Part shown: one piece after another, positions 4,309 to 17,939 of the stretch
Layout: every line of letters starts with the position of its first letter
How positions within the stretch are numbered: the stretch's first letter is position 1
Position numbers and translations under genes: made by a program
Notes under the pieces: generated by a model
What the model saw: only the letters and a program-made list of their open reading frames with translations
The model's database searches: none
What the model was told of the DNA's origin: nothing
From: a virus
Reading direction: 5' to 3' (one strand)
Virus record (IMG/VR): IMGVR_UViG_3300028840_003425
Location: 1-23,690 of that record
DNA: 23,690 bases

Positions 4309-4327
4309 GTTAATATATATAATAAAG
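4309..4327 (+). promoter_or_regulatory. Promoter-like motif GTTAATATATATAAT, copy 2
   Basis: The 15-nt core is identical to the copies at 1589 and 10700. It lies in a 174-nt gap after the helicase and ends about 10 nt before the outer stem of the tRNA-like RNA, so a transcript starting here would begin almost at that RNA's 5' end. No -35 consensus is visible. Confidence 0.5.
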
Positions 4328-4337
4328 AGGGGAATTA

Positions 4338-4439
4338 AAAAACAAGGTAGTTTAATGTAAGAATACCAATTTTATTTTTTAGGGTAATTATTGGTTTTTT
4401 AAAATTGGAGGTGCTGGTTAAAGTCCAGCTCTTGTTTTT
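4338..4439 (+). ncRNA. tRNA-shaped RNA with a ~33-nt anticodon loop
   Basis: A full cloverleaf can be drawn. The acceptor stem AACAAGG (4341-4347) pairs with TCTTGTT (4430-4436), extendable by three A-T pairs. T8 and A9 follow; the D stem is GTTT with GAAT (4350-4364), loop AATGTAA. The anticodon stem is CCAAT (4366-4370) with ATTGG (4404-4408), variable loop AGGT, and T stem GCTGG with CCAGC (4413-4429), loop TTAAAGT. Departures from a tRNA: the anticodon loop is 33 nt instead of 7 (its stem can extend to 9 bp), the D loop lacks GG, T-loop C56 is A, and no CCA is encoded. Options are a tRNA with a small insertion or intron, a tRNA mimic or decoy, or a decayed tRNA. The pairing is seen; any function is inferred. 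Confidence 0.55.
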
Positions 4440-4460: not shown

Positions 4461-4832
4461 ATGAAAAAATTAGTTATTGCTATTGATTTTGATGGTACTA
4501 TTGTAGAAAATGAATATCCAGAAATTGGAGGATTAAAACCTGATGCAAAAAAAGTTATAAATAGATTACATAGTAAAGGTCATACTATTATAATTTGGAC
4601 TTGTAGATGCAATCAACATCCTGAATATGATGATTTGAGTGATATGAAATGGTTTTTATTTGATAATGAAATTAAATTTGATTGTGTTAATCAAAATGAT
4701 AAAAATATTGTTCAATTTGGATGTTTTCCGAAAATTTATGCTAATGTTTTTATTGATGATAGAAATATTAGCGGAATACCTTCTTGGATAGAAATAGAAA
4801 AAATTATAAATGAAATGGCTGAAGGAAAATAA
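4461..4832 (+). CDS. HAD-superfamily phosphatase-like protein
   Basis: 123 residues, ATG behind AAAAAGG. Motif I is AIDFDGT with Asp9 (nucleophile) and Asp11; motif II is the Thr in IIIWTCR; motif IV is the pair Asp99-Asp100 in VFIDDRN. This is a minimal HAD fold without a large cap, the type often found in phages next to nucleotide-metabolism genes and related to the 3'-phosphatase half of T4 PseT. Substrate unknown: a nucleotide or nucleic-acid end phosphate is the natural guess given ThyX nearby. The next gene begins 2 nt after its stop. It could be translated from the same transcript as the tRNA-like RNA. Confidence 0.75.
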   Translation: MKKLVIAIDFDGTIVENEYPEIGGLKPDAKKVINRLHSKGHTIIIWTCRCNQHPEYDDLSDMKWFLFDNEIKFDCVNQNDKNIVQFGCFPKIYANVFIDDRNISGIPSWIEIEKIINEMAEGK

Positions 4833-10348: not shown

Positions 10349-10704
10349 GTGATGAAGGATTTGAAAGAATAGATTTTCACGTTACTAGCGTTATAAAATG
10401 TTATCCTTCTATAACAAAAACGCCAACAACAACACAAATAAAAAAATGTTCTAAATGGTTAAATAAAGAAATAAAGGAAATTAAACCTCCTTATATATTA
10501 GCATTAGGAAACACATCTATAAAATATTTTTTAGGAGAGAATTCAGGTATTATGAATAAATGTGGCACTACTGAGTGGAATAATGATGTTGGGGCTTGGA
10601 TTTGTTGGTGTATTCATCCAGTTAGTGTACTTTATGACGCTAAAAATAAAGAATTATTTAAAAAAGGTATAAAAAATTTTATAAAAAAAATAAAAAATGG
10701 TTAA
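10342..10704 (+). pseudogene. Uracil-DNA glycosylase (family 4/5-like) remnant, frameshifted
   Basis: This frame has no start codon near its beginning and lies one frame off the dnaE end. It reads FHVTSVIKCYPS, then CSKWLNKEI, PPYILALGNTSIKYFLG and CIHPVSVLYD. These are the third and fourth iron-sulfur Cys, the LGN strand and the HP motif B of uracil-DNA glycosylases. Cys-x2-Cys is at the end of the dnaE frame, but motif A (GEAPG) and the PFVG segment, normally about 55-70 residues between them, are absent. A deletion of non-triplet length inside a DnaE-UDG fusion explains both the missing part and the shift. The product should be inactive as a glycosylase. An assembly error is the alternative. 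Confidence 0.7.
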
Positions 10705-10720
10705 TATATATAATGAAGGA
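10700..10720 (+). promoter_or_regulatory. Promoter-like motif GTTAATATATATAAT, copy 3
   Basis: The same 15-nt core as at 1589 and 4309, here overlapping the stop of the UDG remnant and followed directly by GAAGGAG of the next gene. It would start the recombination operon. The TATAAT box (10709-10714) is so close to the ribosome binding site that a transcript would have a leader of roughly 10 nt. No matching -35 box. Confidence 0.5.
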
Positions 10721-11171: not shown

Positions 11172-11329
11172 TGGATTTTTTATTTAATTTACTCATGGTA
11201 GTTTTAGGAGTTATTTTAACTCCTATTATATTATACATTATTTTTAGAATTATATCCAAGGCGATATTTAAGAGTTTTAATGAAGAAATTAAAGGAGATA
11301 AAAATGTCAAAAACAAGAAAAAGATTTAA
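11171..11329 (+). CDS. Small single-TM protein, 52 aa
   Basis: ATG at 11171 overlaps the last base of the previous stop, behind AAAAGGAAAAAG. The 52-residue product has one strong membrane helix (residues about 3-30: LFNLLMVVLGVILTPIILYI) and then a basic, soluble tail ending KNKKKI. The positive-inside rule suggests the tail is cytoplasmic. Its last 26 bases overlap the ssDNA-binding protein gene. The embedded position in a recombination operon is unusual; a membrane tether or a lysis-related role are options with no direct evidence. Confidence 0.5.
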   Translation: MDFLFNLLMVVLGVILTPIILYIIFRIISKAIFKSFNEEIKGDKNVKNKKKI

Positions 11330-12353
11330 AAATCTATCTGAAAAAACACAAAAACATTATAAAGATAGAAACAAATACGGAACAGGTAAAAATTATTATG
11401 AATTACCTGATAATATGGAAGAATTTAAGCCTAAAGAAGGAGTGAATAAAATTGATATAATTCCTTATATAGTGAAAACAGATCAAGACCCACAACAAGA
11501 AAAAGGTGAAGGCGCTTATGTACTTTATGTATGGGTTCACAAAAATATAGGGATTAATAAAAATCAATTTGTGTGTTTGTCTAAAAATTTTGATAAACCT
11601 TGTCCTATTTGCGAAGAAGTTGAAGAATTAAAAAATTCTGGTGATAGTGAATTAGAAGAGTTAGGGGAAATATACAAAGCCAAACAAAGAGTTTTGTATA
11701 ATGTAAAACATAAAGGTGAAATTAAAATATTTGAAGAATCACATTTTTCATTTCAAAAAACTTTATTAGAGGAGTCTTTGGATGATAGTACTGGAGATGT
11801 TATTACTTTTGCTGATCCTGATGATGGCAAGACTATCAAATTTACCGACAGCGGTGTTTGGAATGATAGATTCAAAAGGTTTAGATTTTTAGATAGAGAA
11901 GAAGAAATAACAGATGAAGAATTGGATGAAGCTGTTTCACTTGAAGAATTATTAACTGTGTATACTTATGATGAGTTAAAAAATTATTTTCATTCAGCTA
12001 ATATAAAAGATGATGATGAAGAAATTGATGATGAAGAAATTGATGATGAAGAAATTGATGATGAAGAAATTGATGATGAAGATGACAATGAAATCGAAGA
12101 AGATGATGAAGAAGAAGATTTACCTAAAAAAAGAAAAAATAAATCAAAGAAAAAAAATCATAAAGAAATTGATGATGAAGATGATGACGAAGAAGAAAAA
12201 CCTAAAAGAAAAAGAGAAAAATTAACAAGCAAGAAAAAACCAAAATGTCCATATGGTTATTCATTTGGCGCTGATCATGATTCTGAGGACGAGTGTGATG
12301 AATGCGATGAAGATTTATGGGGATGGTGTGCTGCTGAGAAAAGAAAAAAATAA
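11304..12353 (+). CDS. gp32-like single-stranded DNA-binding protein
   Basis: 349 residues from the ATG at 11304 (AAAGGAG 5 nt before); an in-frame ATG at 11280 lacks a ribosome binding site. The core has a zinc-site pattern His79-x11-Cys91-x8-Cys100-x2-Cys103 (CLSKNFDKPCPICEE), closely like the H-C-C-C zinc site of T4 gp32. From about 230 comes a very acidic region with DDEEI tandem repeats and Lys-rich blocks; acidic tails of SSBs recruit replication partners. The last 30 residues hold another Cys cluster (CPYGYSFG, DECDECDED, WGWC), seen in related phage SSBs. It would coat ssDNA in replication and recombination, next to the RecA-like gene. Confidence 0.85.
   Translation: MSKTRKRFKNLSEKTQKHYKDRNKYGTGKNYYELPDNMEEFKPKEGVNKIDIIPYIVKTDQDPQQEKGEGAYVLYVWVHKNIGINKNQFVCLSKNFDKPCPICEEVEELKNSGDSELEELGEIYKAKQRVLYNVKHKGEIKIFEESHFSFQKTLLEESLDDSTGDVITFADPDDGKTIKFTDSGVWNDRFKRFRFLDREEEITDEELDEAVSLEELLTVYTYDELKNYFHSANIKDDDEEIDDEEIDDEEIDDEEIDDEDDNEIEEDDEEEDLPKKRKNKSKKKNHKEIDDEDDDEEEKPKRKREKLTSKKKPKCPYGYSFGADHDSEDECDECDEDLWGWCAAEKRKK
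12012..12086 (+). repeat. 15-bp tandem repeat in the SSB acidic tail
   Basis: Four exact copies of GATGATGAAGAAATT plus a degenerate fifth, coding (DDEEI)n. Being a multiple of three, copy-number changes would lengthen or shorten the acidic tail without breaking the frame. A similar DDEDDDEEE block follows at about 12170. Confidence 0.85.
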
Positions 12354-16727: not shown

Positions 16728-17939
16728 ATGAATTTAAATGTTGATTATGATGATATTCATAAAAGAATGCAAGTTTTAGTAGGAATATTAGTTACTTCGA
16801 TTTTATTTATAATAGCAACTAATAATCTATTTAGAATAATAATCAACAAATTAAAATTTACTCATTTATATAGTCATGTTATTTTGTTATATATTTGTTG
16901 TATAATATTATTCATGACTATATTTTTTATTAATAAATACATGCAAATTATACAATTATTGTGTTTTATGTTCATACTTATTTTGAGTGTTTATGAAACT
17001 TTATTGGGTGATTTTCACGATGTACTTTTTTTGACATTAGTAAGCACATATTTTATAAAATATCATATTGTAAAGAAAAATTTAATTTTTAATTTAATAA
17101 TTATTTTTATAATATATTGTTTTTTATTGTTTGTAAAAATTATATTTTTCAATAAATTCGATGAATCATTTTTTCAAATAATAAATAAAATAATAACTTC
17201 AGTTGGAGTTTTTATATTATTTAATGGCGCTTATTATTTTGAACAAAAAATTATAAATCAAATATTATTACAAGATCAGGTATTAATTAGTATAGGCAAA
17301 CAATCAGCAATGTTAATGCATAATATTAAAAATTCATTATATAAAATAACTGCGCTAGATGATTCTTTGTCACAAGATGATGATATAATTGAACACCTTA
17401 GAATGAGAACTGCATTGGTTGATGATGTAATATTTAAAGTTAGGGATGCGACCGACAGAATAACTTCTAATAATTTAATTCCGAATAAAGTTTCAATAAA
17501 TGAAATAATAAGAAAAATTAAAAATAGTTTTATGCTTGATAAAAAAAATAGTGATATCAATATTATTATAAAAGATAATCATATTATTATAGTAAATGGA
17601 ATATATATAATAATTTTTTATATGATTAATAATATAATTATAAATTCAATACAAGCTAATGCAAAAAAAATAGTAATAGAAACTATTGAAGAAGATAAAT
17701 ATAATGTTTTGAAAATAAAAGACTGGGGCGATGGAAATAAAATATGTAATAAATGTTCAGATAAAAAATGTATAAATTGTAAAAAATATAGAGCTGGCAA
17801 AACTACAAAAAAACAAGGTACTGGATTAGGGATAATTAATGTGCAAGAGACGATGAATGAATTAAATGGCAAAATGTTAATAAATACTAAATTAAAAAAA
17901 GGTACAACTATATATTTATATTTTAGGAGGACAAAATGA
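16728..17939 (+). CDS. Membrane sensor histidine kinase with Cys4 insert
   Basis: 403 residues. About six membrane helices fill residues 15-166. A dimerisation/phosphoacceptor helix follows with MLMHNIKNSLYKI, His198 in an H-x-x-K-N-x-L box like NtrB-type kinases. The ATPase domain has an N-box (NNIIINSIQANAKK), G1 DWGDG (332-336) and G2 GTGLG (364-368). Between G1 and G2, in the ATP lid, is a C-x2-C-x4-C-x2-C cluster (Cys340-Cys351), probably zinc-binding. All core elements look intact, so autophosphorylation is plausible. There is no receiver domain or response regulator in the window. Histidine kinases are rare in phages; it might signal into a host two-component pathway. Confidence 0.85.
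   Translation: MNLNVDYDDIHKRMQVLVGILVTSILFIIATNNLFRIIINKLKFTHLYSHVILLYICCIILFMTIFFINKYMQIIQLLCFMFILILSVYETLLGDFHDVLFLTLVSTYFIKYHIVKKNLIFNLIIIFIIYCFLLFVKIIFFNKFDESFFQIINKIITSVGVFILFNGAYYFEQKIINQILLQDQVLISIGKQSAMLMHNIKNSLYKITALDDSLSQDDDIIEHLRMRTALVDDVIFKVRDATDRITSNNLIPNKVSINEIIRKIKNSFMLDKKNSDINIIIKDNHIIIVNGIYIIIFYMINNIIINSIQANAKKIVIETIEEDKYNVLKIKDWGDGNKICNKCSDKKCINCKKYRAGKTTKKQGTGLGIINVQETMNELNGKMLINTKLKKGTTIYLYFRRTK

Follow-up and report, generated by a model that had tools for sequence, protein, structure and literature searches.

A phage encodes an RNA that keeps the acceptor, D and T arms of a tRNA but has, where the anticodon stem-loop should be, a hairpin of 43 nt in which no anticodon is presented. 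On one side of it lies a repeated promoter-like motif, and on the other the HAD-FAD-ThyX-DnaE genes. The RNA should be either a tRNA that has been given a new, non-decoding role or a tRNA gene that was broken only recently. Here, we ask how far its own features, its relatives and the known systems that it resembles distinguish between the two.

Setting and detection of the tRNA-like RNA

The RNA lies in a virus record of 23.7 kb with a G+C content of 25.6%, the whole of which we call the window. The source is a tailed bacteriophage, and the genes of the window include those for a DnaB-like helicase, ThyX, a DnaE-type DNA polymerase, a single-strand-binding protein, baseplate components and a RecA-like protein; DnaE, RecA and the ribosome-binding sites point to a bacterial host. 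Between the end of the helicase gene (4286) and the start of the HAD-like gene (4461) there are 174 bases, which harbor the RNA as a solitary element, outside any tRNA array (Table 1). A U-rich stretch follows, and then the genes for the HAD-like protein, an FAD-binding protein, ThyX and the DnaE-type polymerase, the HAD start codon being placed 24 nt 3′ of the RNA and equipped with its own ribosome-binding site, AAAAAGG. Elsewhere in the window, a tandem repeat of 15 bases, GAAATTGATGATGAA, at 11991-12225 gives the single-strand-binding protein (gene at 11280-12353) an acidic DDEEI repeat, and a phage-encoded membrane-type histidine-kinase-like protein (HATPase_c, E 7.4e-9) occupies 16728-17939.

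Table 1. Positions of the tRNA-like RNA, its parts and its flanking features in the window
Feature	Position	Strand	Basis or remark
Promoter-like motif GTTAATATATATAATAAAG, with TATAAT at 4318-4323	4309..4327	+	1 of 3 repeat copies
tRNA-like RNA, full cloverleaf including discriminator U73	4341..4437	+	RF00005, descriptor
Acceptor stem, 5′ strand AACAAGG	4341..4347	+	7/7 pairs with 4430-4436 UCUUGUU
D arm GUUU-AAUGUAA-GAAU; A14, A15, G18, U19, A21	4350..4364	+	
Anticodon arm, CCAAU/AUUGG 5 bp extended to 9 bp (CCAAUUUUA/UAAAAUUGG), 25-nt loop	4366..4408	+	constrained fold
T arm GCUGG-UUAAAGU-CCAGC; U54, U55, A56, A58	4413..4429	+	
Acceptor stem, 3′ strand, and U73; U-rich trailer, CCA not encoded	4430..4437	+	
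HAD-like protein gene, first after the tRNA-like RNA	4461..4832	+	PHROG 1238, E 4.7e-30

The RF00005 tRNA model matches the RNA with 42.9 bits, against a gathering cut-off of 29; the E-value is 3.4e-6 when the whole window is compared with all 4227 Rfam families and 8.1e-10 for RF00005 alone, and tRNA is the sole Rfam family matched anywhere in the window. We also composed a cloverleaf descriptor, with 7/7 acceptor pairs, a D stem, A14 and A21, a 5-bp anticodon stem with a loop of 7-60, a variable loop of 3-6 and a 5-bp T stem with a UUNRA loop, which matches once in the window and never when it is run on 200 random windows generated by a Markov-1 (dinucleotide-matched) model. The tRNA-like RNA is more than chance. 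ARAGORN makes no call on it, either at default settings or in intron mode; when the threshold is also relaxed (-ps90), intron mode yields a call at 4340-4438 that is labelled 'tRNA-Stop (tta), intron of 26'.

The cloverleaf reads AACAAGG / UA / GUUU-AAUGUAA-GAAU / A / CCAAU-33 nt-AUUGG / AGGU / GCUGG-UUAAAGU-CCAGC / UCUUGUU / U73, with four intact stems of 7/4/5/5 bp, in which every pair is standard, and with AGGU as the variable loop. The cloverleaf of the original prediction, which had been drawn without database searches, is thus confirmed in all its stems by the RF00005 match and the descriptor, and its 33-nt anticodon loop, 4-nt variable loop, D loop without GG, A56 and missing CCA had each been read correctly.

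The promoter-like motif that had been noticed upstream also proves to be a genuine repeat. Its 19 bases, GTTAATATATATAATRAAG, occur at 1589-1607, 4309-4327 and 10700-10718, with 0, 0 and 1 mismatch among the three copies, and there are no further copies in the window; 0.25 would be expected at ≤3 mismatches. The copies at 1589 and 10700 each directly abut the ribosome-binding site of the gene that follows, and a strong terminator-like hairpin precedes the copy at 1589, an arrangement in keeping with a phage promoter whose leaders are very short. The repeated motif is probably the promoter of this phage, in which case the start site would be expected at approximately 4329-4330, some 12 nt before the acceptor stem. 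A leader of about 12 nt is of normal length for RNase P.

A tRNA body with a replaced arm

Beyond the stems, the features that hold a tRNA together in three dimensions can be read from the sequence: U8, A14, A15-U48, G18-U55 and U54-A58 are all in place. The original prediction held that both partners of the 19-56 tertiary pair had been lost. This part of it has to be revised, given that the D loop AAUGUAA retains G18, that the next position is U19 and that position 56 is A, so that U19 and A56 can pair. The G19-C56 pair is near-universal in tRNAs. Among 512 distinct class I phage tRNAs, which were collected by scanning contigs recruited by two tRNA patterns and other loci, the scan setting no condition on position 19 or 56, the pair is G-C in 496, A-U in 7 and U-A in 4, with 3 of these 4 coming from the pattern that fixed A56 and left position 19 free and the 7 A19-U56 tRNAs being incidental; the other 5 keep C56 and have irregular D loops, in which the automatic choice of position 19 is not G. 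All 11 phage tRNAs without C56 (in L140, L171, L178, L190, L213, L222, L227, L231, L234, L235 and L236) have a Watson-Crick pair at 19-56, and all encode NCCA or a near version of it. Because these 11 remain Watson-Crick without exception, U19-A56, a replacement that is shared with 4 of the 512, is a compensation rather than a loss. Covariation, one of the checks named with the original prediction, thus speaks for the RNA at this tertiary pair and is limited to it because no long-loop homologue was found for the arm. Taken together, the body looks constrained rather than decayed and would have been under selection until recently or still be so. More generally, the coordinated swap at 19-56 (11/11) offers a simple test by which living odd tRNAs of phages might be told from decayed ones.

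Energy-based folding gives a less tidy picture: the cloverleaf has −17.1 kcal/mol and the minimum-energy fold −21.1, the latter keeping the acceptor stem and T arm, with the strands of the D and anticodon arms merged into one rod. Phage tRNAs with an encoded CCA likewise fold only in part into cloverleaves, so that the rod-like minimum is not decisive. Two other interpretations of parts of the RNA were set aside. A hairpin scan lists the T arm as a terminator, yet it lies inside the cloverleaf and runs into the operon; and a remnant of an integration site (a tRNA 3′ half at attP) is at odds with the whole cloverleaf, its location within the replication operon and the window, in which no integrase was noticed.

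The departure from a tRNA is confined to the anticodon arm. The 33-nt loop exceeds the normal one by 26 nt, as does, approximately, the arm as a whole, and CCAAUUUUA pairs with UAAAAUUGG without interruption, so that a 9-bp stem closes a 25-nt A/U-rich loop. Nine pairs in the exact class I register are rarely obtained by segment shuffling (P 0.0011; 5 bp, P 0.05), although the 4-bp extension beyond the 5-bp stem is weak evidence alone, being found in 6% of the shuffles (P 0.06), and the stability of the hairpin is ordinary, with 252 of 1000 shuffled loops as good. Instead of the 7-nt anticodon loop with U33 and a purine at 37 by which a decoding tRNA is recognized, there is a 33-nt loop within a 9-bp extended stem; any anticodon is buried in that stem, and hence the RNA in its present form is unable to read codons. 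As for the loop itself, three ideas were rejected: an antisense action on phage start regions, for which the best duplex is weaker than for nearly all shuffled loops; selection for hairpin stability, which is no greater than that of shuffled loops; and a small reading frame (AGGG...UUG GUU UUU UAA), which is too short and was taken as chance.

Relatives and rival origins

Of the relatives that share the gene order, L009 (with L081 and L091) is nearest, its DnaB being ~40%, HAD 52% and RecA 50% identical to the window's proteins; between its DnaB and HAD genes, there is no tRNA but a different structured non-coding stretch of ~450 nt. This stretch (L009:7490-7960; the same in L081 and L091) has a fold z of −3.0 and matches no Rfam family even at permissive E-values. 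An identical phage fragment, L089, covers the genes to the right of 10.7 kb and ends short of the RNA. An RNA with the insert is present in 0 of 28 related records, one distant record having a tRNA elsewhere; nor was any homologue of the RNA recovered at related loci sought by DnaB and by the FAD protein alone, by blastn against phages or with an exact T-arm pattern. Two patterns run against IMG/VR yielded no homologue with a long loop, the long-loop pattern retrieving mostly class II tRNAs and the A56 pattern normal U19-A56 tRNAs and fragments, and a combined pattern run against 84,980 bacterial and archaeal genomes gave 3 chance or unrelated matches and no homologue. These patterns fix D-arm letters, so that more diverged homologues would be missed. 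Across 2.57 Mb of phage DNA, a real long anticodon loop was seen in no further class I tRNA, and none of the ~520 phage tRNAs collected has a comparable class I arm. The search for homologues that had been proposed for this RNA was fruitful for its U19-A56 pair, which has counterparts in phage tRNAs, and fruitless for its long loop.

Some of the matches were set aside on inspection. The pattern matches in L237-L239 were discarded because RF00005 does not match at those places, and the long-loop match in L205 seems to be a class II tRNA parsed in the wrong register. A 103-nt tRNA without an encoded CCA in a phage tRNA array (L171:5813-5915, and L173 from 381 onward; RF00005, 44.7 bits) is missed by ARAGORN and has ~30 extra nt in the anticodon/variable region; it was not accepted as a long-loop homologue because there is no clean way to assign the additional bases to the anticodon loop. 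In at least 93 phage contigs (80 distinct sequences; within L114-L232, e.g., L116, L118, L132, L136 and L229), there are tRNAs of class II shape that have the anticodon UAU, A37, A73 and a variable arm of ~21-33 nt; since tRNAs for isoleucine normally belong to class I, the identity of these tRNAs and their possible decoding of AUA would be worth a study.

We favor, with a probability of roughly 45%, the reading that the RNA is a tRNA-derived, non-decoding product of the phage. The lone insertion falls exactly in the anticodon loop and leaves all else undamaged, which points to selection on the body; counting against a function are the lack of an insert-bearing homologue in the searches, the unremarkable insert and the lowest-energy folds, which disrupt the D and anticodon arms. 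The main rival, and a serious one, is that a class I phage tRNA was recently disabled by a 26-nt insertion in the anticodon loop and, with no further decay yet, is functionless now. This would account for the missing homologues and for an insert without special structure, ATTGG occurs twice, 14 nt apart, as could result from slippage or duplication, and the RNA neither decodes nor is accepted by ARAGORN at default settings. However, the stems and tertiary pairs are still perfect, which would leave very little time since the disabling event; only about one in 10 random insertions would strike the 7-nt loop; and a conserved promoter-like motif precedes the gene. Decay, as considered in the original prediction, thus survives only in the form of a recent single hit, the supposed loss at 19-56 being a replacement by U19-A56 and the stems being perfect.

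The remaining explanations appear far less probable. It is unlikely that a member or relic of the class II phage tRNA(UAU) group has been misread here as class I, with U34A35U36 in UUUAUUU and the rest forming a variable arm. The RNA has UUUAU at 32-36 and, at 97 nt, a length within that of 93 such tRNAs (87-99 nt), and AUA is a common codon in the phage (54 per 1000); the same D arm, UAGUUUAAUG, is not evidence for this assignment because it was the search pattern. Against it, only 3 of 5 anticodon-stem pairs would form (−5.1 kcal/mol vs −17.1 for the class I reading), and U37 and U73 replace A37 (93/93) and A73 (91/93); this poor energy and these missed conserved positions already disfavor the class II parse. 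More improbable still is a decoding tRNA from which a 26-nt intron is removed, as the original prediction had envisaged: a plausible 7-nt loop would result if the ends were joined at certain points, e.g., UUUAUAA with anticodon UAU and A37, and ARAGORN in relaxed intron mode accepts 26 nt, although it reads the anticodon as UUA. Group I introns are hundreds of bases long. The introns of bacterial tRNAs are self-splicing group I introns (PMC4090602), for which 26 nt is far too short, and RF00028 has no match in the window; nor is there a bulge-helix-bulge, the 9-bp helix running straight through the expected splice sites in the constrained fold. Moreover, the DnaE, RecA and ribosome-binding sites of the phage indicate a bacterial host, and U73 does not suit isoleucine. 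The least probable explanation is the decoy or evasion tRNA directed against host anticodon nucleases. Phage tRNAs with changed anticodon loops have been proposed to be nuclease-resistant (PMC10264068), but those tRNAs are functional, their loops being altered by point changes, whereas the anticodon stem-loop that the nucleases recognize is wholly replaced here, which makes the decoy suggested at the outset hard to sustain.

How, then, might a tRNA-derived, non-decoding RNA be made? Transcription would begin at the repeated motif, ~12 nt ahead of the acceptor stem, and RNase P would trim the 5′ end, reading the stack of acceptor and T arm and the D-T contact rather than the anticodon. RNase Z or exonucleases would then trim the U-rich 3′ side, CCA being added afterwards. 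The product would be a stable, scaffold-like RNA displaying the 25-nt A/U-rich loop, and the processing would also provide the following mRNA with a processed 5′ end; the RNA might act via its loop, or only mark the 5′ end of the replication-gene mRNA. Such processing is compatible with the recognition by RNase P of the D-T contact and of the junction between leader and acceptor (PMC12630138), and with engineered tRNA scaffolds, in which an insert in the anticodon arm is tolerated and the fusion is recognized and processed in E. coli (PMC3753655). A bolder version, which is possible but doubtful, has a natural tRNA scaffold at the head of a DNA-replication operon, with the complete body and its compensated pair kept only to fold, process and protect the replacement hairpin, so that the RNA would act in trans or serve as a punctuation mark for RNase P. 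The tRNA-mimic leader of the HAD operon put forward in the original prediction is in keeping with the order of motif, RNA and HAD gene and with the intact body.

Comparison with known systems

Phage tRNAs and pseudo-tRNAs are already known, and this single copy may prove to be ordinary decay; a freshly broken tRNA gene would likewise be ordinary. The phage tRNAs with U19-A56 (L234 Arg-UCU, L235, L236 Thr-UGU and L190) share with the RNA the cloverleaf, U8, A14, A15-U48, G18-U55 and U19-A56, and those in L234-L236 also its UAGUUUAAUGU D arm. By contrast, their anticodon loops are of 7 nt and their CCA is encoded, whereas the RNA has a 33-nt loop (9-bp stem), has no CCA and stands alone before an operon. 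The pseudo-tRNA tRNA-Other of Bacillus cereus (PMC3399842) is likewise tRNA-like, inactive in translation and perhaps in another role. As described, however, the two are set apart: tRNA-Other is chromosomal and, according to the literature cited for it, has a CCA anticodon, whereas our RNA is phage-borne and has an enlarged arm.

The tRNA-like domain of tmRNA also combines a tRNA-like body with a replaced anticodon arm, but the acceptor of the RNA lacks G3-U70 and its D arm has a base-paired stem; Rfam gives no tmRNA model match in the window, and no reading frame of at least 20 aa lies within the RNA. Intron-containing tRNAs of archaea and eukaryotes (PMC4090602) have a comparably short insertion in the anticodon loop and differ by the bulge-helix-bulge, which is missing here, and by the setting, which is that of a bacterial virus. 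Within the part of the literature covered, a small non-intronic insertion in an arm is not reported for any bacterial or phage tRNA. In its design, the RNA resembles the engineered tRNA scaffold (PMC3753655), which keeps the acceptor, D and T arms and bears a foreign hairpin in place of the anticodon stem-loop; that scaffold is man-made, and the RNA would be its putative counterpart in nature. If it is made and processed, it would represent a natural case of a tRNA body carrying another hairpin, so far only engineered, and the roles of phage tRNAs would widen beyond codon supply and nuclease evasion.
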